DNA of 64,000 nt from Brassica napus (taxonomy: Eukaryota > Streptophyta > Magnoliopsida > Brassicales > Brassicaceae), in contig NC_063444.1 of NCBI RefSeq assembly GCF_020379485.1, forward strand, positions 7,264,652-7,328,651, in the 5' to 3' direction. Each line of letters starts with the position of its first letter. The first letter of the stretch is position 1. Shown here piece after piece: positions 26,701 to 64,000 of this stretch. Below the pieces are notes generated by a model. That model searched no databases. It was not told the DNA's origin and saw nothing but the letters and a program-made list of their open reading frames with translations. Made by a program: the position numbers and the translations under genes.

Positions 26701-28057
26701 TGTTGGGGTCAAAATTGGTCACGACGGAATCGATGTCCAAAATTCCTCAGAAAAACCGAATCTCGGTCAAAACTTCAAAAGCCGAGAAAACGAACAGCCG
26801 AAACGGATCGCCCGGCGAGCTCGGCTGCAACACGGGCTAGCTCACCCGGCGAGCACGGCCACGACACGAGCCAGCTCGCCCAGCGAGCACGGCCGTGTTG
26901 CCGGTCGAGTCGCCCGCGAGCTCGGCCGTGACACGGGCCAGCTCGCCCGGCGAGCACGGCCGTGACACAAGCCAACTCGCCCGGCGAGCACGGCCGTGTT
27001 GCCGGTCGAGTCACCGATGATCTCGGCTGTGACACGGGCCAGCTCGCCCGGCGAGCACGGCCGTGTTGCCGGTCGAGTCGCCGGCGAGCTAGGCCGTGAC
27101 ACGGGCCAGCTCGCCCGGCGAGCACGACAGTGTTGCCGGTCGGCTCGCCGGCGAGCTCGATCGTGCCGCGGATCAGTTCGCCCGGCAAGCACGGCCAATT
27201 CTCCATGGACCATACCGAACCCGGTCCCATCCCATAACCATGGATACGACACCAATGTTCCGTCTAAAAAACATCGTCGAAAGTATTCGGGAAGTTGGGA
27301 AGGTTATGTCTCTCGAACAGTTTCCTATTCTTCGTAGTAGAGCAGGTTACGGTTAACTTAACACCAACTGCCTCGGTTATGCGAAGAAGCAGGGTTCCGT
27401 TGGAAGAACCATGCCTATACCAACGGCTACTTCGCGAATAAAATCGTAAAAACGCTTAAGTCTCGATACAGCCCAAAGAGGATCCGAATTGCGGACAACG
27501 GCCCACCTTTGGTCCCAAAATAATTGAATCCAAAAACTGGTACGATGGTTTATCGCATCCGCGGGAAGAGATAAATGTCAAATTTCCGAAGATAATCACA
27601 AAGAAGAAGGAAATATGGAAAAGCCCGCTTCGCGAAAAATCCGGCCCGAGAAGAGGTAAACCGACCTAAGGAGGACTATATAAGGAGAACCTAGGATGAA
27701 GAGAAAAGAAATGAGCATTCTAAGAGCAAACTTAATACTTAGAGCAATTTAGGCTTTTTTCCATTTTTACTACCGAGCTGCGAGTCGACTAGGTTAGAAC
27801 TTAGGTGGCTAGACTAGCGAACATTCCGACAGCTCTCGTGGCCTAGGATCTTACCTGTTGTTCACGCTCAAACGCAAAATCGGAAATAAGACCTCTTTGT
27901 TCCCTTTTTGCTCTTTTACGATTTATTACTTTCGAATATTTCATATTGATTGCGTTGTGTGTGGCCCAGCAGATAACCGGGACCTTCAGGGAAGGCTAGG
28001 TTAACTTGACTTTCCTCCGATTAACAAAACTCGACGGTGTAAATTTCTGTTCCCACA
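26701..28057 (+). repeat. Tat-like 5' LTR
   Basis: It begins TGTTGGGGTC and ends TCCCACA. It contains a GC-rich minisatellite (about 26805-27190). It matches 32376-32870 plus 43456-44459. In the first 150 bp about nine differences are visible, mostly C/T or G/A, as expected from decay of methylated sites. Confidence 0.9.
26805..27190. repeat. GC-rich minisatellite in the 5' LTR (33/34 bp half units, 67 bp unit)
   Basis: Units alternate between one containing CGTGTTGCCGGTCGAGTCG (33 bp) and one containing CGTGACACGGGCCAGCTCG (34 bp), forming a 67 bp repeat. The joins CTCGCCCGGCGAG are near-palindromic. At least four 67 bp units plus extra 34 bp units are seen. The same array occurs in the 3' LTR (32487-32870 and 43456-43555) with a different arrangement. 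Confidence 0.88.
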
Positions 28058-32375: not shown

Positions 32376-32870
32376 TGTTGGGGTCAAAATCGGTCACGAC
32401 GGAATCGATGTCCGAAAGTCCTCAGAAAAACCGAATCTTGGTTAAAACTTCAAAAGCCGAGAAAACAAACAGCCGAAACGGATCGCCCGGCGAGCTCGGC
32501 CGCAACACGGACCAGCTCACCCGGCGAGCACGGCCGCGACACGAGCCAGGTAGCCCTGCGAGCACGGCCGTGTTGCCGGTCGAGTCGCCGGCGAGCTCGG
32601 CCGTGACACGGGCCAGCTCGCCCGGCGAGCACGGCCGCGACCCGAGCCAACTCGCCCGGCAAGCACGGCCGTGTTGCCGGTCGAGTCGCCGACGAGCTCG
32701 GCCGTGTTGCCGGTCGAGTCGCCGACGAGCTCGGCCGTGACACGGGCCAGCTCACCCGGCGGGCATGGCCGCGACATGAGCCAGCTCGCCCGGCGAGCAC
32801 GGCCGTGTTGCCGGTCGAGTCGCCGGCGAGCTCAGCCGTGACACGGGCCAGCTCGCCCGGCGAGCACGAC
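32376..32870 (+). repeat. Tat-like 3' LTR, left part
   Basis: It begins TGTTGGGGTC and runs into the minisatellite. It is cut after ACGAC (32866-32870), where the chromovirus inserted. Confidence 0.9.
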
Positions 32871-34599
32871 TGTAACGCCCCCGAACCGTTCTAGGCATAG
32901 GTCAAACCACCGGCCAACAATCAAACAAGAACATGACCGACGGCCGACCGTCTACCAAGGATCGGGAGTGCTACATGACGGGTTAACGGCCGATCTGGCC
33001 AAGGTCACGAAAAGTGCAATTCGTAACTAGGCCAGGCCGCCCACTAACACGTCCCGTCAGACCAAAGCCTAAGGCTTCTCAACCCGTACTCCAATCTGAC
33101 GTTGTGTTAGCTCGGACAAGCTAATATCAGAACAACAAGGCAGTTTCACAAAACATTCCCTTTATTTATCTTATATAATATCTGGTTTATAATACACAAA
33201 ATATTATACAAGTGGTGGCATGCCAAGAAAGCGAAAGTACATACTTATAGTCTGAAAGCGTCTTAAGCAAAAAGATGCAAATCTACACCAGCCAGCCTAG
33301 CCTCCCGCGCTTTCTACAAGCTCACTACTGGTCACCTGAAAACAACAACGAGTGAGGAGTGAGTAATCTAGCATTACTCAGCGAGTTACAATCCCCCACT
33401 AACAAATACAACCCCTCGCTATCCCACCCCAAACAATCTAAAGCGAGAGGTTCACCTAACAACACAATTTAATAACAATAAGCAATATCAGAAATACGCA
33501 GCGGTAAAAGATAGCAAGATAACTAGCATTATGCTAATTACTAGCTCATCACCAAACTCAAACTCGATTTAAACCAGGGTTTAACAACCCAAAACACGAT
33601 ATATATATATATATATCAAACTCGGGCCCTGGTGACGTTATGTTCCTCCTTCACTATCGGCAATATCCTATCTTCCTACCACGAAGGCCAAAAGAAGGAA
33701 CTTTCAACCGACCGCGGCCCACAGTCCTTCGGGTCACCGCGCGACAGCCCACAGTCCTTCGGGTCACTGCCACATTACACCGTCGTGTAATCACTCAGCC
33801 ATAGGCCATGACCCCGTCTATCTGAGTCTTCCCGATCCAGCGAATAAGGGGTTTCCTTGAACCCGCCGGGTACGAGGTCTGAAGGAACACTAACTCACCC
33901 CAATATGCCTAGCATTGTGGGTTACACAAATGCTGTCGGCCAATATACGATTAATACTAAACCCGGTAAAAATAACACAAGGTTTCAAGTAATAATCACA
34001 ACACAATCAACCACATTCCAGAATCTAGCATAAAGACTAATTCCAGAATACCTAACTATCCACAACTTAGCGATATCATCTAAGCATTCTGCATTCGCTA
34101 ACTAACCAATCAACCTAACCATTAGCATGCTCCTACGGTTCTCAAACAATAACAAGCATGCCATCAACTCAATCAACATAACCTCAATTATTCAAACCGT
34201 TACTCAGTTAGACCCGGCCTCCTGCCATGATCCAACTTCCAAGTAACGGGATCCTGCATGAAAACAACTCAGCAATCAATCGATTATAACTCACAGTTTT
34301 TGGTTGACCGTGGCCTTGACCCCAAACCCGACTTCTGCGATCCGAACCCTTTCCCGACCTTCACAAGTAGACCCTCTTCTTGACTGAACTCCACTTGAAC
34401 TGGTCTCCACTAGAACTGATCTCTCTTCACTTGAAAAGAGCCTTCTCCAAGTGCTGACTCAAAATCGGCAGAGTAACTGTTCTCGAAAACTGCCTAAATC
34501 ACTCGAAAACTATCGAAACTCGATCTTTCTTTGCTTTCTCTTTATGTTTTGAAGTAGGTTTGATGTGTTCTGGATGGTTTGAAATGAGAGGGGGTCGTG

Positions 34600-34612
34600 G
34601 CCTATTTATAGG
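34600..34612 (-). promoter_or_regulatory. TATA box in the Tekay 3' LTR
   Basis: On the minus strand it reads CCTATAAATAGG, with ATTGG (an inverted CCAAT) about 20 bases upstream. It is the natural candidate for the LTR promoter. This copy would drive read-out into sequence to the left. Confidence 0.65.
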
Positions 34613-34679
34613 AATCAGCAACCAATCAGGAACAAGCCGTGTGGCAGCCCGTGTGTCGCTTCGCATGGCTCCGGACGCA

Positions 34680-35100
34680 TGCGCGGCGGCACCTCGTGCT
34701 CCACATGTCCTTCAGCATGGCCTGCTCACATGCAAGCTGACACCACGCCCTCTACCTGTCTGAATGCATGGCCTGCTCCCATGCAAGCTGACACCACGTC
34801 CTCCACATGTCTGGCCGCATGGCCCGGTCGCATGCATCGCGACACCTCGTGCTTGGCCGTTCCACCTCGTGCTCCACATGGCTGGCTGCATGCCTCAGTC
34901 TCATGCAGGATGACACACCCCACGTCCAGATGGCCTGCTGCATGACTGAAGTGCATGCAGGTCGACACCCCATCTCACACATGGCTGGCCGCATGCTTCG
35001 GTCGCATGCATCGCAACACCTCGTGCTTGGCCGTTCCACCTCGTGCTCCACATGGCTACTTGCATGTACAGGTTGCATGTACTGCTACACCTCCTGCTTC
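34680..35100. repeat. About 51 bp degenerate tandem repeat in the Tekay 3' LTR
   Basis: About seven units carry recurring words GCATGC, CTCCACATG and GACACCACG at spacings near 51 bp, two of them extended by GCTTGGCCGTTCCACCTCGT. The array lies just upstream of the TATA box in the transcription direction, so it belongs to the U3 region. The open frames across it on both strands are by-products of the repeat. Confidence 0.75.
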
Positions 35101-40752: not shown

Positions 40753-42485
40753 CCTCTGTAACGCCCCCGAACCGTTCTAGGCATAGGTCAAACCACCGGC
40801 CAACAATCAAACAAGAACATGACCGACGGCCGACCGTCTACCAAGGATCGGGAGTGCTACATGACGGGTTAACGGCCGATCCGGCCAAGGTCACGAAAAG
40901 TGCAATTCGTAACTAGGCCAGGCCGCCCACTAACACGTCCCGTCAGACCAAAGCCTAAGGCTTCTCAACCCGTACTCCAATCTGACGTTGTGTTAGCTCG
41001 GACAAGCTAATATCAGAACAACAAGGCAGTTTCACAAAACATTCGCTTTATTTATCTTATATAATATCTGGTTTATAATACACAAAATATTATACAAGTG
41101 GTGGCATGCCAAGAAAGCGAAAGTACATACTTATAGTCTGAAAGCGTCTTAAGCAAAAAGATGCAAATCTACACCAGCCAGCCTAGCCTCCCGCGCTTTC
41201 TACAAGCTCACTACTGGTCACCTGAAAACAACAACGAGTGAGGAGTGAGTAATCTAGCATTACTCAGCGAGTTACAATCCCCCACTAACAAATACAACCC
41301 CTCGCTATCCCACCCCAAACAATCTAAAGCGAGAGGTTCACCTAACAACACAATTTAATAACAATAAGCAATATCAGAAATACGCAGCGGTAAAAGATAG
41401 CAAGATAACTAGCATTATGCTAATTACTAGCTCATCACCAAACTCAAACTCGATTTAAACCAGGGTTTAACAACCCAAAACACGATATATATATATATAT
41501 ATCAAACTCGGGCCCTGGTGACGTTATGTTCCTCCTTCACTATCGGCAATATCCTATCTTCCTACCACGAAGGCCAAAAGAAGGAACTTTCAACCGACCG
41601 CGGCCCACAGTCCTTCGGGTCACCGCGCGACAGCCCACAGTCCTTCGGGTCACTGCCACATTACACCGTCGTGTAATCACTCAGCCATAGGCCATGACCC
41701 CGTCTATCTGAGTCTTCCCGATCCAGCGAATAAGGGGTTTCCTTGAACCCGCCGGGTACGAGGTCTGAAGGAACACTAACTCACCCCAATATGCCTAGCA
41801 TTGTGGGTTACACAAATGCTGTCGGCCAATATACGATTAATACTAAACCCGGTAAAAATAACACAAGGTTTCAAGTAATAATCACAACACAATCAACCAC
41901 ATTCCAGAATCTAGCATAAAGACTAATTCCAGAATACCTAACTATCCACAACTTAGCGATATCATCTAAGCATTCTGCATTCGCTAACTAACCAATCAAC
42001 CTAACCATTAGCATGCTACTACGGTTCTCAAACAATAACAAGCATGCCATCAACTCAATCAACATAACCTCAATTATTCAAACCGTTACTCAGTTAGACC
42101 CGGCCTCCTGCCATGATCCAACTTCCAAGTAACGGGATCCTGCATGAAAACAACTCAGCAATCAATCGATTATAACTCACAGTTTTTGGTTGACCGTGGC
42201 CTTGACCCCAAACCCGACTTCTGCGATCCGAACCCTTTCCCGACCTTCACAAGTAGACCCTCTTCTTGACTGAACTCCACTTGAACTGGTCTCCACTAGA
42301 ACTGATCTCTCTTCACTTGAAAAGAGCCTTCTCCAAGTGCTGACTCAAAATCGGCAGAGTAACTGTTCTCGAAAACTGCCTAAATCACTCGAAAACTATC
42401 GAAACTCGATCTTTCTTTGCTTTCTCTTTATGTTTTGAAGTAGGTTTGATGTGTTCTGGATGGTTTGAAATGAGAGGGGGTCGTG

Positions 42486-42498
42486 GCCTATTTATAGG
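42486..42498 (-). promoter_or_regulatory. TATA box of the Tekay 5' LTR
   Basis: CCTATAAATAGG on the minus strand, with ATTGG upstream and the 51 bp repeat array (about 42566-42986) further upstream. It would start the full-length RNA roughly 30 bases to the left. Confidence 0.7.
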
Positions 42499-42565
42499 AA
42501 TCAGCAACCAATCAGGAACAAGCCGTGTGGCAGCCCGTGTGTCGCTTCGCATGGCTCCGGACGCA

Positions 42566-42986
42566 TGCGCGGCGGCACCTCGTGCTCCACATGTCCTTCA
42601 GCATGGCCTGCTCACATGCAAGCTGACACCACGCCCTCTACCTGTCTGAATGCATGGCCTGCTCCCATGCAAGCTGACACCACGTCCTCCACATGTCTGG
42701 CCGCATGGCCCGGTCGCATGCATCGCGACACCTCGTGCTTGGCCGTTCCACCTCGTGCTCCACATGGCTGGCTGCATGCCTCAGTCTCATGCAGGATGAC
42801 ACACCCCACGTCCAGATGGCCTGCTGCATGACTGAAGTGCATGCAGGTCGACACCCCATCTCACACATGGCTGGCCGCATGCTTCGGTCGCATGCATCGC
42901 AACACCTCGTGCTTGGCCGTTCCACCTCGTGCTCCACATGGCTACTTGCATGTACAGGTTGCATGTACTGCTACACCTCCTGCTTC
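42566..42986. repeat. About 51 bp degenerate tandem repeat in the Tekay 5' LTR
   Basis: This is the same array as at 34680-35100, practically unchanged. It lies in U3 upstream of the TATA box. Confidence 0.75.
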
Positions 42987-53547: not shown

Positions 53548-54060
53548 AGTTCTCCACAAATCGGACTTCAAGATTCTTTAATCACCGTACGAGATACGAT
53601 TTTGTTCTTCCACTTTTGTAATTTTTACCTTTGAATGAGAGATATTCGTAATGATCGATGCATTGTTTTCACTGTCCAATGTATAAAAGTAATTCGTATA
53701 TATATTTTCTTTTTGTCATTGCATTTATGTTAATCTAGTTTTGCTTAATTAGAAAATATAGTACGTAGCATAGAATAGAGCTTTAACCAGCTGTAAATAG
53801 TTTATTTAAACAACATTTATTTTATCGTACGTGCGGCTAAGCAATTTTATTCTGAGAATTAAATTTAGGAAAGTTTACTCAAATATACAATATTTTATGA
53901 CAATTGACTAGAACCATACATATCTTTTTTTTATTACTGACATTTTTTAAATACCAAGTGCCTTTTTTTACGTTATCAGAAAAAACGTATTTACAAGAAT
54001 GCCATTATTTTTCGCTGCCATGTAAGCAAAAACACGGCGCCACGTAGGAATTTGGTTCCG
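53548..54060. other. Spacer between the peptide gene and the MULE region
   Basis: AT-rich, no gene recognised. The repeated GGCTGA motif of the following region is not yet present before about 54075, which gives an approximate left boundary for the MULE. Confidence 0.5.
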
Positions 54061-54069
54061 TGTTTTCAT

Positions 54070-54700
54070 TAAGTCAGCCGTAAATCACTTCATACGTCGT
54101 TACGGCTGATTTATTGCTACGTGTCGGCTGAATTAATAAACACGGCCGACTTAAGATGAAAAAGCTGATTTAAGAACATAAGTCAGCCGCCCGGTACGCC
54201 TGATTCACAGAAATGTGGTTGATTTATGGGATAACGGCTGACTTACATACACAAGTTACGGCTAACTTATACATCGGCAGTTTGATTGCTGGAATATTCG
54301 GCTGAGTTGTAGTTAAGACACGGCTGAGTTATGTTTCCACGGATGAGTTAATGAATATCGACTGGCTGAGTTATTTAATTTACGGCTGACTAATTGGATG
54401 TTGTTACGGCTGAGTTTATATTTAATCAGCCGTAATAGGATGAATTAATATTAAACTCAGCTTGTTTACGGCTGACTTATTAGCGAAAGATTAATTACTA
54501 GAATAGCATTCGTTTGACGGCTGATTTATGTGACGATACAGCTGATTTATGGTTTTTCATCCTAATTACGGCAGATTTCGGATCAAAAGATTAATTACTG
54601 AAATAGTATCCACGGTTCGGCTGACTTACATTGTACACGAGGGCTGATTTACGTAGGCTGAGTTATATATTCGTTTGTCGGCTGATTAACTGATTTTCCA
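54070..54700. repeat. Dense cluster of GGCTGA(G/T/C)TTA motifs
   Basis: I count about 17 exact GGCTGA or TCAGCC hits and roughly nine one-base variants within 630 bases, many in the wider context ACGGCTGA(G/C/T)TTA. Most point in the plus direction and a few are inverted (for example near 54073, 54183 and 54426). Spacing is irregular, so this is not a tandem repeat. Confidence 0.85.
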
Positions 54701-54796
54701 TGTCATCTGCCATGTCATCAACTCGGATTTGCCATGTCACCGCTAACGAAATACTTTACAACTAGGTTTGTGTGTGTTCATCTCTTTCTTCATCTT

Positions 54797-54799
<3 letters not shown>

Positions 54800-54838
<39 letters not shown>
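54800..54838. repeat. (TA)n microsatellite
   Basis: About 19 uninterrupted TA units. Confidence 0.95.
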
Positions 54839-54840
<2 letters not shown>

Positions 54841-54875
54841 TCTTCATGTTATTCTTCATCTTTCTCAGAGATCTA

Positions 54876-55083
54876 ATGGATCCGGTAATTATTGTTTTCT
54901 GGTAACTGGATTAAGAAAAACAGATATGTATTCAACGCCGACAGTAGAGGGTGTAGAGTTCTTCATTTAGATGAGAAAACAAAACATGAAGAATTCGCAA
55001 AGTGTGTACTCGATGATTACAGATTGAATGAATTGAGGCATCAGAAAACAATTGCGCACGACGCTCCACCAGTTTACGGATAA
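54876..55083 (+). pseudogene. Truncated duplicate of the MULE transposase first exon
   Basis: The sequence matches 57674-57906 (WIKKN, YVFN, RGCR, HLDEK, DDYRLN) but has a frame change in the first 30 bases, an internal deletion of the stretch after LNELR, and a stop at 55081-55083. It shares upstream sequence (ACTCGGATTTGCCATGTCA) with the full gene, which shows that it arose by segment duplication. Confidence 0.8.
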
Positions 55084-55591
55084 CAAGGACCCAGAAATGA
55101 ATCGGAATGACAGAGCAAGAGAGAGACGAGTAAAACGGTTTTCAGTTTTAGCTCAGAAGCAGAAGTTTCAGTTTTAGCTCAGAAGCAGAAGTTTTTCGGC
55201 TGAATTATTATTTAATTATGTCTGAGTTATCGTGAATTTATATCTGCGGATGAGTTATCGTTTAATTAAGTCTGAGATATCTTTATGTCTGTTGATGTTT
55301 TCCCCCCTCCGTAACCTTTGTCGTCAACAGTTCACGTTTCTCCGTTAAAACAAAACGCTTCGTTTCATTTAAAGAGAAAACGTCGACATGTTAGCTTACA
55401 TAAGTTAAAATCGCGAGGCTCATTCCAAAAAACCCCCAAATTTGAAAATTAGGGCTCTTCAGAAGAGAGGATTAACTGTAAGTCTCTTTCGTCAAATCCG
55501 AGATCATATACTATTTTTTTTACTTGAACATTTTGTGTGTTTCGCCTTGGTATAGTTTCAATCATTTTTGTTTGTTGTGAAGTAGAATTCG

Positions 55592-55888
55592 ATGGATCTA
55601 GGGCGTGGAATCCCAAGGTGGTGCGACTGTGGAGCTGCTACTGTTGTGTTAAAGTAAAATACCGCAAGGAATCCGGGAAGAAGGTTTTATCGTTGTGGAG
55701 AAATTTCGGGTGAAAACCATGTTTTCAAATGGCTTGATGAAGCACATGATGAAGAGTTTGTAGTTGTGGCAAACAAACTGGCGACGATGGAGCAAGATTT
55801 GGCCGACATAAAAGCAGACTTAGCTGATATGAAGAACGACATAAGTGAGATCGTAGCACTTATCGAGTGTCTTAGGGTGAAGTGTTAG
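55592..55888 (+). pseudogene. GRF zinc-finger protein gene, broken by one stop
   Basis: The 99-codon frame begins MDLGRGIPRWCDCGAA and continues ARNPGRRFYRCG and FKWLDEA, the C-x-C ... C pattern of plant GRF zinc fingers. A coiled-coil-like tail of repeated LADIKADLADMKNDI follows. TAA at 55655-55657 interrupts the zinc finger. GRF fingers are small nucleic-acid-binding modules. A related gene with intact frame lies on the other strand at 62427-62919. Confidence 0.75.
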
Positions 55889-55929
55889 ATGTATTAGTTG
55901 TTGTTGGGATAAATAAAAATGTAGTATTT

Positions 55930-56110
55930 TAATTATCATTTAATTATGTTGGAGTTATCGTTTAATTTACGGCTGAGTTATCATTAATTTACGGCTGAGT
56001 TATCGTTAATTTACGGCTGAATTATCATTTAATTATGTTGGAGCTATCGTTTAATTTACGGCTGAGTTATCGTTAATTTATGTCTGAGTTATCGTTAATG
56101 CAAAGTCTTA
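55930..56110. repeat. Cluster of CGGCTGAGTTATCGTTAAT motifs
   Basis: Four exact and several near copies occur at spacings of about 20-23 bases, giving locally a short tandem arrangement. Confidence 0.8.
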
Positions 56111-56116
56111 TCAAAC

Positions 56117-56400
56117 TTTGAAAATAATAAAGTATTATCGTCTCAATGTTATAAAGGTCTCGATATTAGTTCTGAGCCGTATTTTCCACACTTCTGAAGT
56201 GCCATAATTAATTATCAACACGGTCAAATCAAGTAAGATGAAACGTCCCATTATTATAATGGACGTTTAATATTATAGAAAAGTATTACCGTGAATGTTA
56301 AATCAGTTTTTAAATACTAAAGTATTATAAAGGCCTCAATATTAGTTCTAATCCGTATTTTCCACACTTTTGCCGTATTTTCCACACTCAGCTGTCCCAT
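56117..56400 (+). repeat. Two copies of a CCGTATTTTCCACAC module upstream of an F-box-like gene
   Basis: The modules contain AAAGTATTA, TATAAAGG(T/C)CTC(A/G)ATATTAG and CCGTATTTTCCACAC in this order. Related copies are near 62160-62245 and 63105-63185. They occur next to gene starts of the MULE region, so they may be promoter parts. Confidence 0.65.
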
Positions 56401-56541
56401 TAATATTAACGGCTGAGTTATATTCTGAGTTAAATAATAAAGTATTACCGTCTCGATCTCTATGAAGGCCTCGATGTTATATTAACCAACATAGCTGAGT
56501 TATATCAACCATCATTGCTTAGTTATATTAACGTTACATTA

Positions 56542-57114
56542 ATGGATTATTTTCCGATTCTTGAATGGCCTGAAGAGATTCAGGCGTTAGTGGTTGAACG
56601 TGTGGCCGGTAACTCCTTCCAAGATCTCTATGGCCTCAGAGCATCGTGCAAGTTGATGAAGGCGTTAGCAGATCGGCGTAGTGTATGCCATTTTTACGAT
56701 GTATTATACGTTCCCTGTGGACTCAATATGCCTGATGAGTTGTTGAAAACTTGCTACGCGGAGAGAAATCCAAGCACACTTTATATGAAGGGTGTACAGT
56801 TTTTCTTCACATTTAACCTTCAGGAAGAAGGACTTTCTTTCATGAAGCTTGCAGTGGATGAAGGATATGAGCGTGCTATGTATATATACGCAATGACTAT
56901 AAAACATTTTTGGGGTGATGAGGAGTATTTTGCTCGTTTTACAAGGGAATCAGTTGACAGGATTGGGAAACTAGTTCGATCTCTAAAATGGGCATGGGGT
57001 TCTCTTCACGATGACGAGTTTCGGGCAAAGAGGGACGAGTTCATTTCAACCATTGTTCCTTCGTTCTATAGTTGCCAATGTCTTCCTGTTTTGGAGCGAG
57101 ATTGGGTCTTGTGA
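56542..57114 (+). CDS. F-box-like protein (At2g35280/At1g67623-like), copy 1
   Basis: A 190-residue frame begins MDYFPILEWPEEIQALVVER, which looks like a divergent F-box at residues 6-50, followed by SFQDLYGLRASCK. A later part (GLSFMKLAVDEGYERAMYIYAM) resembles the TPR/Sel1-like helices of the Arabidopsis At2g35280-type F-box proteins. Such proteins are normally substrate receptors of SCF ubiquitin ligases. The frame stops earlier than in the second copy's family-like tail: sequence after the stop (to about 57230) still resembles a C-terminal KEIG..L..FEP..(L/V)IRDTR segment, so this copy may be truncated. It lies between the two transposase copies and may be transposon cargo. Confidence 0.55.
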   Translation: MDYFPILEWPEEIQALVVERVAGNSFQDLYGLRASCKLMKALADRRSVCHFYDVLYVPCGLNMPDELLKTCYAERNPSTLYMKGVQFFFTFNLQEEGLSFMKLAVDEGYERAMYIYAMTIKHFWGDEEYFARFTRESVDRIGKLVRSLKWAWGSLHDDEFRAKRDEFISTIVPSFYSCQCLPVLERDWVL

Positions 57115-57279
57115 TTCATTGAAAACAGTAAGGGTGACAAAATGTGTACCGCTGTTTCTGGATCAAAGAGGTGGGGCTCTTCTTCCGTGAGTTTGAACCG
57201 ATGAGCGTGATTAGGACACAAGGGAGTGGTGAAGATGTATTGTATTGAATCTTATCTTTTTTTAATGTCCTTTGCTATG

Positions 57280-57510
57280 ACATTATTATGGCTGGGTTAT
57301 GTTTTATATTATGGCTGGGTTGTCTTTTAATTACGGCTGATTTTTGTTTATGGTTGGGTTCTCTACAATTACGGCTGAGTTTTAATTTCATAATGACTGA
57401 GTTATCGATAATTGGCAGTGTTATTTAAATACGAGACGACTGAGTTATTTAAATGCGAGACGGCTGAGTAATTGTTACTTAAGGCTGAGATAATGCTAAC
57501 TTCTTGGCTG
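57280..57510. repeat. Motif-rich spacer before the transposase gene
   Basis: Contains about five exact GGCTGA hits plus GGCTGGG and GACTGAG variants. No coding potential. Confidence 0.75.
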
Positions 57511-58774
57511 AGTTTTGTAAAAAAATCCAAGATACAAGCAAGGAATCCGCCATGTCATCAACTCGGATTTGCCATGTCATCACTAACTAACGAAATTTAC
57601 AACTTGGTTTATGAGACTGTTCATGTTCTTCTGCATGTTATTTATCTATCGTTTTCATCTTTCTCAGTTGGTTATGGATCAGATAGTTATTGTTTCCAGT
57701 AACTGGATTAAGAAAAACATATATGTATTCAACGTCGACAGAAGAGGGTGTAGAGTTCCTCATTTAGATGAGAAAAAAACACATGAAGATTTTGCAAAGT
57801 CTATTCTCGATGATTACGGATTGAATGATTTGAGGGATCATATTCAGCTTAGCTACATGTTCTCGAATAAAGCATTGAAAACAATGTCGCACGACACTCC
57901 ACCAGTTTACGTGTCCAATACTCGACAATTGCAAGGTTTTCTAAGCCTAAAGAAAATCGAACAACTACGTCTGTGTGTGGAGATTACGGAGAACAAGGAT
58001 GACAGAGCAAGAGAAAAGAGTAACGAGAATGACAGCTCAGAAGTAGAAGCTTCAGAAGTTCAGTCCAGAGACAAAAACTACAATAGGAGTTGCGATGGTT
58101 GCAGTTTTGAGAAGGAACAAGAGGACAATGTAAATGACTGCTCTAGTAATTTGGAAGGAGAAATACACGACGTAGTCAGAGAAGATGAAATAGGCAAAGA
58201 AAACGAAGAAGATGATGAATTTGAAAGCCGATTTGATATGTTCGACGACTCGGACGGTGCGTCATCTGAAGATGATAACTTCAGCTCATACGGTGAGTCT
58301 CTTACAGAAGACGAAGATTCACCAACGCTACCTGCCAAGAAGAGATATCAGAACTTCTCGATGAGCGGACCTAAAGGGAATCTGGAGGTTCTACAGTTGG
58401 AGATGTCGTCGATAGACCTTGCGGTAGGGCAACGATACGAGAGTAAAGACGATTTGGAGAGACGACTGAAACTTCTTACAGTGAGGTATCGATTTGATTT
58501 TGATGTAGAAACATCAACCCCGACATCATATGTTGTTAAGTGTTGGGTTGATGGATGTCTTTGGAGAGTTTGTGCTTCTACCCAAGGGGAATCCCCGGCG
58601 TTTTATGTTCATATTTAAGATTCGAATCATACGTGTTCTTGCACTGAGCGTTCTAATCGATCTCGACAAGCAATACCGGATATTTTGGGAGAGTTGTACA
58701 AGAACTTTCTCGGTGACGTTGGTCCGGCCGTTCGCCATACGTGTGTCGGAATAGATATCACTGAGTAGTTTGGT

Positions 58775-58965
58775 GTAAAGTTAATTACTTTGATGCGGCT
58801 GAGTTATGTTAATGATATTGCTGAGTAATATGAAACGTAGCGGCTGGCATATTAATACAATGCGGCTGGGTTATAATAAAGCTAGGGTTGAGTTATTTTT
58901 ACGTTGTGGCTGTCTTAATTTTATGATGTGGCCGAGTTATGTGTATCGTTATTTCATGTGAACAG
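58775..58965 (+). other. Transposase intron 1, motif-rich
   Basis: One exact GGCTGAGTTA and five variants (GGCTGGG, GGTTGAG, GGCTGTC, GGCCGAG, GGCTGGC) lie inside 190 bases. The acceptor GAACAG precedes ATGGATTATTGG. Confidence 0.65.
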
Positions 58966-59838
58966 ATGGATTATTGGAAATCACACCGGACGCTGAAATT
59001 TGCAAGGGAAATCGATGAGGGAACACCTGAGTGTGGGTTTGAAAGCTTGCCTTCTTACTTATACATGATAAGAAGGGAAAATCCGAGTACAGTTACGCGT
59101 CTTCAAATCGATGAGCTTGGAAGATTCATGTATGTGTTTCTTGCATTTGGTGCGAGCGTAAATGGGTTTCCTTTCATGCACAAAGTTGTTGTTGTCAACG
59201 GTACGTTTCTTAATGGTAAATACAAAGGGACGCTACTTACAGCACTAGCTCAGGATGGTAACTTTCAGATTTTTTCAATAGCCTTCGCAGTGGTTGATAC
59301 TGAAAATAATGATTCGTTGCATTGGTTTTTAATGCAATTAAAACTTTTGATTCCTGACGACGAGGGTCTTGCGATAATCTCGGATAGGCATAACTCGATA
59401 GGGAAAGCAATTAGAAATGTGTATCCATTAGCTGCTCGGGGAATATGCACCTACCATTTATATAAGAACATATTGGGACGGTACAAAGGAAAAGATGTAT
59501 TTCATCTGGTGAAGAAAGCGGCGAGATGTTTTAGGATGTCTGACTTTAATGTAATTTTCGAGGAGATTGAAGCGGTTAATCCTGCACTCCACGGCTACCT
59601 CCAAAGAGCTAATGTTCGACTGTGGACGCGTGTTCATTTCCCGGGCGAGAGGTATAATTTGATAACTACGAACATAGCGGAATCAATGAACAGAGCATTG
59701 TCTAATGCTAGAGGTCTTAACATTGTTCGAATATTAGAATCGATATGGGTTATGATGACCAGATGGTTTGCTGAACGGAGAGAGGATGCCAGATCGCAGC
59801 CAACCAGGCTTACGCGTGGTGTGGAAAAACTACTACAT

Positions 59839-59944
59839 GTAAGTCAGTCGTAACAGTAAACATAAGTCAGCCATTATAGTTCCTAAGTCATCCTTTATAT
59901 GTAATAAGTCAGTTGTTTCACATTTATTCTATTTTTCTTCATAG
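59839..59944 (+). other. Transposase intron 2 with inverted motifs
   Basis: GTAAGTCAGTCG starts the intron and CTTCATAG ends it. It contains AAGTCAGTCG, AAGTCAGCC, AAGTCATCC and AAGTCAGTTG, the same motif in reverse orientation. The first one overlaps the splice donor. Confidence 0.8.
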
Positions 59945-60429
59945 GGTCGTGTAACTGCCGCCAGATATTTGACGGTACAAAGGATCGATGATCATCACAC
60001 TGAAGTTAAATATGGATCTTCTGGCGAGTATTTGAATATTGTTAATTTGGTAGAGCGAAAGTGCACATGTCGGCGTTTCGAACGCGAGAAATTACCATGT
60101 GTACACGCAATCGCAGCTGCGAAGTACAACAATGTTTGTCGTATATCCCCGTGCAGTCCTTACTATAACAGCGCATATTTGGTGAGTGCATACGCTGAAT
60201 CGGTCATGCCGGCTGACTCAGCGCAACCTGTTCCAGAAATCGTGGCTAACTAATCGTGCTTGCCCCGTATATTCGTCAACAACCAGGAAGACCTAAGAAA
60301 AATAGGATGAAATCTGCTTTAGAAGTTGCATTTCAAAACAAACGTCCTAGGAAAGAACACACATGTTTTCGATGTAGACAGAGTAGACATAATGCGAAAA
60401 CTTGTCCGATGTAAGCAAATGTTGTAGAG

Positions 60430-60800
60430 ATTTTCATGTTTTTGTATTACGACTGGGTTTTTGGTATTACGGCTGGATTATGGATTTTCATGTTTTTGTA
60501 TAACGGCTGGATTTTTGTTGAAAGTTTATGTATTACGGCTGGATTAGGGATTTGAATGAATTTGTATTACGGCTGGGTTTTTGTTTTCAAACGCAATTGT
60601 TATAATTTCCGCCCAAAATAAGAAATGTCGCGATGTCAATAACAGCTGATTTATTGAATGAATTTGTATTACAGCTGAGTTTTTGTTTTCAAACGCAATT
60701 GTTATAATTCCCGCCTAAAATAAGAAACGTCGCGAAGTCAATAAACGGTTGATTTATTGAATAAATTTGTATTACGTCTGGATTATGGAATAACTTTCCG
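60430..60800. repeat. Motif-rich spacer after the transposase gene
   Basis: Variants TTACGGCTGGATTA and TTACGGCTGGGTTTTTG recur. A 40-50 base phrase with CAAACGCAATTGTTATAAT occurs twice (about 60586 and 60690), and CGCCxAAAATAAGAAA three times. Confidence 0.75.
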
Positions 60801-60932
60801 CCAAAAATAAGAAACGTCGCGATATGAAAACCGTTTTACTGTCAATAAATAAGGCAATTCTCAAACAATTATATGTTTAACTCTCTATTTTTTACACAAT
60901 TTCTCTCTCTCTCTAAATCAATTTCACAGTAA

Positions 60933-61631
60933 ATGGAATATTTTCCTCTTCTTGAATTGTCTGAAGAAACAGGCGTTGGTGGTTGAACGTGTGGCCCGTA
61001 ACTCCTTCCAAGATCTCTATGGCCTCAAAGCATCGTCCAAGTCGATGAAGGCGTTAGCAGAGCGGCGTGGTGTATACCATTTTTACGATGTGTTATATGT
61101 TCCCTGGGAACTCAATATGCCTTCTTCGTTGTTGAAATCTTGCTACACTGAGGGAAATCCAAGCACACTTTATATAAAGGGTGTACAGTTGTTCTTCTCA
61201 TTCGGCCTTAAAGAAGAAGGGATTTCTCTCATGAAGCGTGCAGCAGATGCAGGATATGAGGATGTTGTGTATACACACGCAATGACTCGAGCAATCTTTT
61301 GGTGTGATGGGCAGTATTTTGCTGGTATTCCAAGAGAATCAGTTCAGAGGATAGGGAAACTAGTGCGATCTGTGAAGTGGGGATGGGGTGTGTGGCATTC
61401 TGACGAGTTCCGCCAACATAGGGTCATTTTCATTTCAGCTTATCTTCCGTCATTCTACAGTTGCCAATGTGCAACACATGTGGAGCGATAATGTCTCTGC
61501 TTGTGGCACATTGATGTGACTAAGGATGACAACATGTGTGAGCGCTGTTTATGGACCAAAGAGATTGGCATGTTCTTACATAATTTTGAACCGATAAGCC
61601 TTATTAGAGACACAAGGAAGTGGTGAAGATG
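60933..61631 (+). pseudogene. F-box-like gene, copy 2, frameshifted near its start
   Basis: The start ATGGAATATTTTCC matches copy 1, but a two-base deletion near 60967 shifts the frame and leads to a stop near 60984. The rest (60952-61491) is open and about as long as copy 1, with SFQDLYGLKASSKS and GISLMKRAADAGYED. After the stop at 61489 further family-like sequence continues (CLWTKEIGMFLHNFEPISLI, ending near 61625). The full-length ancestor was therefore longer than either copy's present open frame. Confidence 0.6.
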
Positions 61632-61699
61632 TAAAATCTATCGGAATTTTATCTATTTTATGTTCTTTGCTATGCCATTATGTATGTCTGACAACAAAT

Positions 61700-62410
61700 T
61701 AATATAACGAAGGCTTAGTTATTGTTTTTAAACTGAGTTATAGTTTAATTACGGCTGCATTACTGTTTTATGACGGCTGAGTTATTGTTTTCAAGCACAC
61801 ACATCATGCAAACATCAACAAACATCATGCAGAGTTATTAACAGCGTTATTAATTATGGCTGAGTTATTGTTTTATGACGGGTTATTTATAGTTTCTTTT
61901 GGCTGATTTAGAGTTGAATTATGACTCGGTTTATGTTTAATTACGGCTGAATTATCATTAGTTTAATTAGGCTGAGTTTTGGTCACATAATATGAAGTCA
62001 TATTAGCATTAAACACTAATGAAAATAGGTTAAAATCGGTATTGCATCAGATTTCTTAATTTACGGGCAGACATGTAAAACGTCAATTAAAAACGAATGG
62101 AAGGAGTAATAATTAGCCTCGATATTCTCATATCGTTGGCGGAGTTAAAGTATAAATCGTCTTGATATTATAAAGACCTCGATATTTTCCACACATGCCA
62201 CCATTAATCGACAACTCAGTCCAATCAAGCAAGTGGAAACGTCCCATTAATAATGATAGTGGGTAAGTGATAATCTAAGTTGAGACTGAGTTATATTAAC
62301 ATTCACAGCTGGGTTTATGTTTAATTGATGGGGAGTTATCATTAGTTTACTTCACGGCTGAGTTACTTTAATACGTTAAGTCTGAGTTACATAAAACATA
62401 GGTTGACTTA
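61700..62410. repeat. Motif-rich spacer
   Basis: Contains at least six exact GGCTGA copies and several variants. A module with GATATTTTCCACAC and CAACTCAGTCCAATCAAG lies at about 62160-62245. No gene is seen. Confidence 0.7.
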
Positions 62411-62426
62411 TATGTACAAAACATTA

Positions 62427-62919
62427 CTAAACAAAGAAGTAGTAGTAGCAAAGTAACAACATTCCAACCCCACAAACAGCCACATTCCTCAAACACCGAC
62501 CCTGACTCATACATTCTTCTCCTTTTCCCTCAGACTTCGTCTTCATTACTTCAATCTCTTTCTCCAATCGAGCAACGTTAAGTCTGAATTCCGAGATGTC
62601 TTTGTTCATGCCACTTATCAGTGACTTAATATCCTCAACCTCTTCCACCAAACACTCATCCGCCCATTTGAATAAATGTCTCTGTTTTCACCAATATAAC
62701 TAGATCTAAGTATTACGTTACAGAACATGCGAAATAACAACCAAAACGAACCTTATTATATTCTTTTCCGCAGCAATAGTACAATCTTCGTGGATTTGTA
62801 GCGGTTCCAGATGTAGAAATGTAACAGGGTTCACCACACCAACATTGTTTCGACGTTCCTCTTTCCGCATTCAAACGTCGCCTGTAAGAATTTCTTGAAA
62901 CGCAGGATGAACAAGACAT
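62427..62919 (-). CDS. GRF zinc-finger protein with coiled coil and C-terminal hydrophobic segment (2 exons)
   Basis: Minus-strand exons 62752-62919 and 62427-62681 are joined across a GT-AG intron (62682-62751) in frame, giving 140 residues. The start is MSCSSCVSRNSYRRR. The GRF finger reads CWCGEPC, TNPRRLYYCCG and, after the intron, HLFKWADE. A coiled-coil-like stretch (VEDIKSLISGMNKDI to KEIEVMKTK) follows, and the protein ends in a hydrophobic segment VCGVGMLLLCYYYFFV that could anchor it in a membrane. The family is plant-specific and often found near transposons. Its role is unknown. Unlike the copy at 55592 this one has no stop. Confidence 0.75.
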
Positions 62920-63179
62920 TTTGATTCTCAAAACAATTTCAGAAACAAAATAGAATTAAATAGAATTAAGGTAAGTAAGAAGACGACATGATGAAACGGC
63001 GACGTTTACTTTTTTCCTTTTTAAGTATTAAGTATATAATATTTAAATATCTCTTGATATTGTAAATCCCTCGACACATGTGTGGCAGCCGTGCATTTCA
63101 AACTCTTAATAATTAGCCTCTATATTAGGTTTGAGCCGTATTTTCCACACGCGCCATAATTAATCGACAACTCAGTCCA

Positions 63180-63430
63180 ATCATTATGTTTAATTACGGC
63201 GGAGTTATTGTTACTTTAATGTTGGGTTTATGTTTAATATGGCTGAATTATTTTGTTTAATTAACATTCAAAAATGAGTTACCTTATCCGTTTTGGCTGA
63301 GTTAACTTAAAGTTGTCTCTGAGTTAATATTCACAGCTTAGTTATCTTATAAGTTATGGCTGAGTTATTCTAACAGATACGACTGAATTATATTTACATT
63401 ATGACTGAGTTATAATACTTAATATAAAAG
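63180..63430. repeat. Motif-rich spacer
   Basis: Three exact GGCTGA(A/G)TTA copies plus variants GGCGGAG, GTTGGG, TCTGAG and GACTGA lie within 250 bases. A CCGTATTTTCCACAC module sits just left at 63139-63155. Confidence 0.7.
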
Positions 63431-63550
63431 AAATATGAATCGACATGTTTACATTCAGGAACCAAAATTACCAGGTTCAAAATACAGACAAGGCATCACT
63501 TTCAGAAACCAAAATTGTCAGGATCAAACTCTTCAAACATGTGGACGAGA

Positions 63551-64000
63551 TCACGCAAAACTCTTGTTAACATCCACGGAGGATTGACGCCTCAGTTTGC
63601 CCAAGTTCTCTTCAAATGGCGCATCTGGCAACGAAATAAGTGTTCTGGCCACAAGATCAAAATGTATCCAAACTGTCGAATTATGCCTTCGATCCCACGT
63701 GTTTTTGCGCTACAACAAAAAAGATTACAAAACTGTTGAGAACCCAAAATAAAAATAGCTCAGCAACGTTATGATGTCATTTTAAATGGACAAACTGTTC
63801 TTACAGCGAGTTGAAGAAACCAGCGTTCCTTAAAATGATCGGGAATGGCTCGGTATGTCGGCCAATCATGAACCCATCCTTCTGTAAGAATCGACGGGAT
63901 GACGAGGGTGAGATCACTTAAAAATTTGAACCAGATAGTACTGGTTGTGTCAAGCAATTCACCCGGACCAGGGTATAGAAGAGTGAGGTTTTCACGATTT
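63551..64000 (-). CDS. Plant transposase-like protein (Ptta/En/Spm type), partial
   Basis: Minus-strand exon 1 enters from the right edge and ends at 63805. Intron 63710-63804 has GTAAGA...TTGTAG ends. Exon 2 is 63551-63709 and ends in TGA. The joined frame reads GPGELLDTTST, WPTYRAIPDHFKERWFLQLA and then RKNTWDRRHNSTVW, the layout of the IPDxxKxRWF...W region of plant Ptta/En/Spm family proteins. The family's biochemical role is not established. The stop may be premature, since family members normally continue. Which reading frame the far right bases use is not certain. Confidence 0.55.

Follow-up and report, generated by a model that had tools for sequence, protein, structure and literature searches.

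The window is a 64,000-nucleotide stretch of the Brassica napus genome (RefSeq assembly GCF_020379485.1, contig NC_063444.1, positions 7,264,652 to 7,328,651, forward strand). Its right-hand part holds a 15.1-kb Mutator-like element (MULE) whose non-coding DNA carries a dense array of a short motif, GGCTGANTTA. The element runs past the end of the window, and positions above 64,000 continue the numbering into the next 10 kb (L002). The features are as follows.

53859..53867, no strand: 9-bp target-site duplication TTAAATTTA, repeated at 68,973-68,981, beyond the window
53868..64000, plus strand: in-window part of the 15.1-kb MULE, which extends from 53,868 to about 68,972 (L002:5624)
54070..54700, plus strand: left subterminal array, 17 exact GGCTGA (14 plus, 3 minus) in 631 bp; the array is densest here, near the left end
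55594..55887, plus strand: degenerate open reading frame (ORF) resembling a GRF zinc finger (tblastn with the element's GRF-like protein, 31% identity, one in-frame stop)
55931..56099, plus strand: tandem array with the motif, periods of 22, 45 and 89 bp (Tandem Repeats Finder)
56542..57114, plus strand: TPR_27 gene (At2g35280-like, F-box-type by source names), open; Pfam PF23310, 3.6e-9
57674..60414, plus strand: MULE transposase; exons about 57,674-58,752, 58,966-59,838 and 59,945-60,414
58753..58965, plus strand: transposase intron 1, six motif sites (at most two mismatches), all plus
59839..59944, minus strand: transposase intron 2, three motif sites (at most two mismatches), inverted
60933..61491, plus strand: second TPR_27 gene; Pfam 8.6e-10 for the ORF 60,853-61,491
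62427..62919, minus strand: GRF-zinc-finger-like protein, 140 residues, two exons; Zn_ribbon_GRF, E 0.0012, below the Pfam cut-off
63580..64000 (approximate, running to about 64,070), minus strand: short gene without known domain (0 Pfam families)
64,838-68,185 (L002:1490-4837, beyond the window), minus strand: VANC-like gene; exons 68,185-67,355, 67,223-65,691 and 65,512-64,838

The left end of the element is supported by a sibling copy on contig C422, whose homology begins no more than one base from 53,868, with different flanks. The right end is based on the 9-bp duplication and on a second sibling, on contig C1, which has its own 9-bp repeat (TAAATATAA) on both sides at the corresponding ends. 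Comparison of the AT-rich stretches gave seven exact matches of 9 or 10 bases, and the TTAAATTTA pair was picked among them because its termini match (15 of 25 terminal bases; GGAAAGTTTAC / GAGAAAATTAT). The terminal inverted repeats are degenerate. A search of the element ends for a clean long terminal inverted repeat found none, and the local alignment of the left and right ends scores 23, no better than shuffles (mean 17.5, maximum 32). The transposase has MULE (5.2e-19), DBD_Tnp_Mut (2.5e-9) and SWIM (1.6e-9) domains in Pfam. In the window copy, exon 1 has an in-frame stop, and exon 3, as read from the sequence, seems to shift frame ahead of the zinc knuckle.

The gene beyond the window edge is intact, its three exons joining in frame into a predicted protein of 1012 residues. 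A DUF1985 domain (PF09331, 1.7e-16) is followed by a middle charged region and a C48/Ulp1 domain (PF02902, 1.2e-36). The C48/Ulp1 part has His, Asp and Cys stretches from residues 877, 894 and 957, which we take to be the protease triad. A profile built from 40 of the 59 homologues matches, at its positions 79-300, the structures of VANC21 (PDB 9lnj and 9lnk, E 1e-6), and its C-terminal part matches SENP1. A scan of the three exon pieces gave no DUF287 at E ≤ 1. The predicted structure is poor (mean pLDDT 49.9); a fold search with this model places SENP/Ulp1-type proteins first (E 0.014), with none at E ≤ 0.001. Judged by its domains and the homologue profile, this is a VANC21-related DUF1985-Ulp1 gene carried by the element.

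The motif is confined to the MULE at this locus. GGCTGANTTA occurs 43 times in the 15.1-kb element and not once in the other 58 kb of the window and extension; the window alone has 28 copies (0.49 expected), a number reached in 0 of 100 shuffles. The shorter core GGCTGA occurs 61 times exactly in the element, 55 times in 6,697 bp of non-coding DNA (shuffle mean 1.07, maximum 4 in 200 shuffles) and six times in 7,594 coding bp. The coding copies lie in the last transposase exon (one) and in exon 2 of the VANC-like gene (five). Background was sampled from the same contig as 20 stretches, one per 2.5 Mb, totalling 200 kb, and these contain 57 GGCTGA and three GGCTGANTTA. The consensus from the 55 non-coding exact sites is (TTAC)GGCTGANTTA(T), with the TTA conserved and the seventh base free (G 28, C 11, T 10, A 6).

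A first-pass annotation, made from the letters of the window, had counted about 39 exact GGCTGA/TCAGCC copies in the non-coding DNA between 54,070 and 63,430 and a similar number of one-base variants. The exact count there is 40 (36 plus, 4 minus), of which 39 are non-coding and one (60,211) is coding by our own exon limits; one-mismatch cores followed by NTTA number 33. It was also right that most copies point one way and that both transposase introns carry the motif, inverted in the second. Other statements need amending. The array is real, but its end lies past the window, at about 68.44 kb, and the outermost 200 bp (left) and about 530 bp (right) of the element are free of the motif. The form GGCTGA(G/T/C)TTA holds for the conserved TTA but not for the seventh base, which can also be A. 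The near absence from exons is true for most copies, although not for the six coding ones. The five in VANC-like exon 2 (66,178-66,508) run in the sense direction and are partly 24 bp apart. Several of these fall in an EAELKKK-type repeat and may be a codon coincidence. Neither of the two findings that the annotation named as fatal to its reading was made: the motif is rare in the sampled contig DNA, and the spacers overall do not resemble one decayed satellite, though local tandem arrays exist.

Orientation and spacing are regular. From 54.1 to 64.25 kb the motif is on the plus strand, with few exceptions (left-end copies and transposase intron 2). In the introns and 5′ flank of the VANC-like gene it is on the minus strand, which is the sense direction of that gene (six and three exact GGCTGA in the two introns, five in the flank, all sense). 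Forty of 81 adjacent same-strand sites are 21-24 bp apart; random placement gives a mean of 6.0 and a maximum of 14 in 2000 runs. A sharp 10.5-bp helical peak was sought in the site spacing and not found, the maximum being broad despite the strong 21-24 bp spacing. Sasaki et al. (EMBO J, 2022) reportedly stress motif density and helical periodicity. Over 99 sites the mean identity of the core is 0.816, and that of the following 12 bases is 0.348 as compared to 0.322 expected from composition, a contrast inflated by the fact that sites were picked by their core. Neighbouring spacers are more alike (0.45) than spacers overall.

We then compared the window copy with four siblings from the 997 Mb of genome searched. 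Of 382 candidates in the transposase-region search, 40 were scored, which yielded 45 matches. GGCTGANTTA counts are 43 (C422), 42 (C348), 42 (C485) and, in the more distant copy on C1, 18; all four share much the same motif strand layout with the window copy. The C422, C348 and C485 stretches do not span both element ends. Transposase, TPR_27 and VANC-like sequence is present in all five copies, and the GRF-like gene and the small gene (first exon) in four of the five. Among the five, the VANC-like matches are stop-free in the window copy only; the stops in the others may partly lie in introns. Between the window copy and its three close siblings, change per position is lowest at the TTA (0.034-0.042) and highest at the two Gs (0.16), possibly by CpG or methylation decay. 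Sibling conservation was considered as a sign of selection on the motif and was set aside as weak.

Genome-wide there are 668 + 690 = 1358 motif-pair matches, and a reversed-pattern control gave 0 + 0. Pair positions were taken from the first 100 places, which cover contig C1 and contig C38 up to 19.5 Mb, and the family test is limited to these. Transposase matches of at least 81% identity (family A) lie within 5 kb of a pair in 9 of 9 cases, whereas a sister family (B, 66-67% identity; 61-69% over all listed matches) does so in 0 of 4, the nearest pair being 79 kb away. One further family A match on C38, beyond the range of the pair positions, was left out. Only about 0.9% of C1 is within 5 kb of a pair. 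Within these parts, the GGCTGANTTA motif is specific to family A as against its sister family. They have 27 motif-pair clusters, nine with a listed transposase match and 18 without; the 18 may be deleted copies, unscored matches or something else. A transposase protein search scored 134 of 3168 candidates. Sixteen of its matches share one score (586.3) and have no stop in exon 2, which suggests the recent spread of a subfamily.

DUF1985 genes seem very abundant in the genome searched. A first look gave 2775 candidates; the 150 scored are all over the Pfam cut-off with at least 125 bits (the element's own scores 61). On the same parts of C1 and C38, 0 of 7 scored DUF1985 matches are within 40 kb of a motif pair; two more on C38, past the range of the pairs, were left out. 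Two remote DUF1985 loci read directly have no motif copies. A second motif, GTACATGT, in one of these loci (L033) was dropped as too sparse. Elsewhere on the contig of the window (C243), six motif copies 14-35 bp apart (L003:4058-4191, about C243:6,614,057-6,614,190) stand beside what looks by eye like a Copia-like RNase H fragment. This locus has no DNA similarity to the MULE. It may be a different element with the same target word, or a chance cluster, given that a genome search for the word brought it up.

The body of the second TPR_27 gene is open, and its apparent ATG (60,933) is in a different frame. The first TPR_27 gene (56,542-57,114) has 203 homologues, and the named ones among the 120 matches listed are from Brassicaceae; the best-named homologues of the window proteins are from Brassica. 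Between 54,880 and 57,114, a degenerate transposase 5′ end and GRF-like and TPR_27 genes stand ahead of the real set, and by sequence this looks like an internal duplication. Outside the element, the window has tandem-repeat stretches at 34,383-34,836 and 42,269-42,722 (two pairs with shared consensus units, 7,886 bp apart) and GC-rich tandem arrays at 26,808-27,196 and 32,483-32,868 (periods of 34, 67 and 101 bp).

Comparison with known systems places the element. Maize MuDR also has a MULE transposase; it has long terminal inverted repeats and is not known to carry a VANC gene, unlike the Brassica element. In Arabidopsis, VANC21 sits on the non-coding parts of VANDAL21 via YAGTATTAY and demethylates the element along its full length (PMC5735166, PMC10398659). 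VANC6 targets AGTTGTMC and acts on other elements with their own motifs, and both motifs are dense, in one orientation and in non-coding, often tandem, DNA (PMC5735166). A 2026 review, which cites Sasaki et al. 2022, reports that Ulp1-bearing VANC genes (KIU) act on their own motifs too and calls the role of Ulp1 unknown (PMC13317346). The Brassica element resembles VANDAL21/Hiun as a MULE with degenerate terminal repeats, a DUF1985 protein and a short non-coding motif in many copies of one orientation, partly in tandem (PMC5735166, PMC10398659). It differs in its motif (the element has 0 YAGTATTAY, in line with the first-pass annotation), in having Ulp1 and no DUF287 in the three exon pieces, and in its extra TPR_27 and GRF-like genes. 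A family-specific motif and a VANC protein are shared with VANDAL6/8 and VANC6, whereas AGTTGTMC occurs only once in the element. The VANC21 and VANC6 motifs are thus ruled out by their counts as an explanation of the array. Kaonashi/KIU, Ulp1-bearing MULEs without terminal inverted repeats, share the VANC-type gene with C48/Ulp1 and the recognition of own motifs (PMC13317346); the Brassica family differs in the GGCTGANTTA motif and in its TPR_27 and GRF-like genes. The element has the MULE transposase, degenerate termini with a 9-bp duplication, DUF1985, Ulp1/C48 (KIU branch) and dense family-specific motif of the VANDAL/KIU group, and lacks the YAGTATTAY and, in the pieces scanned, the DUF287 of VANDAL21 proper. 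It is best read as a Brassica VANDAL/KIU-type MULE that has a target word and a candidate VANC-like anti-silencing protein of its own; systems of this kind are known already. Among the papers listed on VANC/VANDAL in Brassica or on TPR_27/GRF in transposons, no title or abstract opening describes this family, most subscription papers being outside that search.

The element combines a DUF1985 gene with a private, dense, non-coding motif of one main orientation and regular spacing, as in the VANC21 system. From this likeness we infer binding of GGCTGANTTA by the VANC-like protein, which would release its own family from silencing. The array is likely to be the dispersed target of this putative DNA-binding protein, and the whole probably a new case of a known anti-silencing mechanism. 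The first-pass annotation had suggested such an element-encoded protein, and the VANC21 relationship of the intact gene just past the window gives it a candidate. The DUF1985 region would contact GGCTGANTTA, and many sites in near-helical phase would let the protein load on family members only. Once bound, it would clear the element of DNA methylation and other silent marks, allowing the transposase and partner genes to be expressed and the family to spread. The rest of the genome, having no dense arrays, would be spared. The Ulp1 domain may act locally, taking SUMO off silencing factors.

Several observations weigh against this interpretation. The first 337 residues of the VANC-like protein on their own give no VANC21 match and nothing at E ≤ 1; only the profile finds VANC21. 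Between the window copy and the three close siblings, cores change hardly less than spacers (0.086 vs 0.093; 0.077 vs 0.090, p 0.06, without CpG-linked positions), and recent copies therefore decay without clear constraint. The C1 sibling keeps the motif, and its VANC-like protein is only 31-61% identical with no C48 part found, so that motif and protein are not changing in step there. The likeness of neighbouring spacers means that tandem duplication explains part of the regular spacing. Finally, a clear motif of their own was sought in the two remote DUF1985 loci and none was seen.

A more specific version is possible but doubtful. In it, the VANC-like protein would be a DNA-targeted deSUMOylase, with DUF1985 placing the SENP-like protease at about 100 sites of the element, many 21-24 bp apart, to strip SUMO from silencing proteins; the TPR_27/F-box-like and GRF-like genes would be working parts of the same module. 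It is improbable, in our judgement, that the motif is instead bound by the element's transposase (or a TnpA-like function) for synapsis and excision. The array is densest near the left end, the transposase carries DBD_Tnp_Mut, and the motif tracks the transposase family in all nine cases on the listed contigs. Transposases usually bind near the element ends, however, and here the sites extend through introns and spacers along 14 kb, those of the VANC-like introns included, and are missing from the outermost sequence on both sides. We also give a small chance to the motif being a dispersed enhancer bound by a host factor or by one of the element's other proteins (GRF-like, TPR_27 or the product of the small gene). 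In published elements of this type the motif is read by DUF1985/VANC, and Pfam domain names point to no recognised sequence-reading domain in the other proteins, although their genes are kept in five of five (TPR_27) or four of five copies, and dense, phased sites could suit a host factor as well. Neutral decay of a satellite-like unit multiplied by slippage, with the commonest word left, would fit the local tandem arrays (55,931-56,099), the alikeness of neighbouring spacers and the weak conservation of the core among close siblings, but is very unlikely given near-random spacers beside well-kept cores (a gap inflated by the core-based choice of sites) and a motif spread over numerous distinct introns and spacers in both orientations, only 6 of its 61 exact cores being coding.

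If the VANC-like protein does read the array, VANC-type anti-silencing would extend to a crop genus in which the word is defined, the candidate protein is intact and a sister family is free of the word where checked. The specificity and co-evolution of motif and protein become testable by binding and methylation assays, as does the role of the Ulp1 domain in VANC-type proteins. A search for GGCTGANTTA pairs may also be a fast way to find members of this Brassica MULE family.

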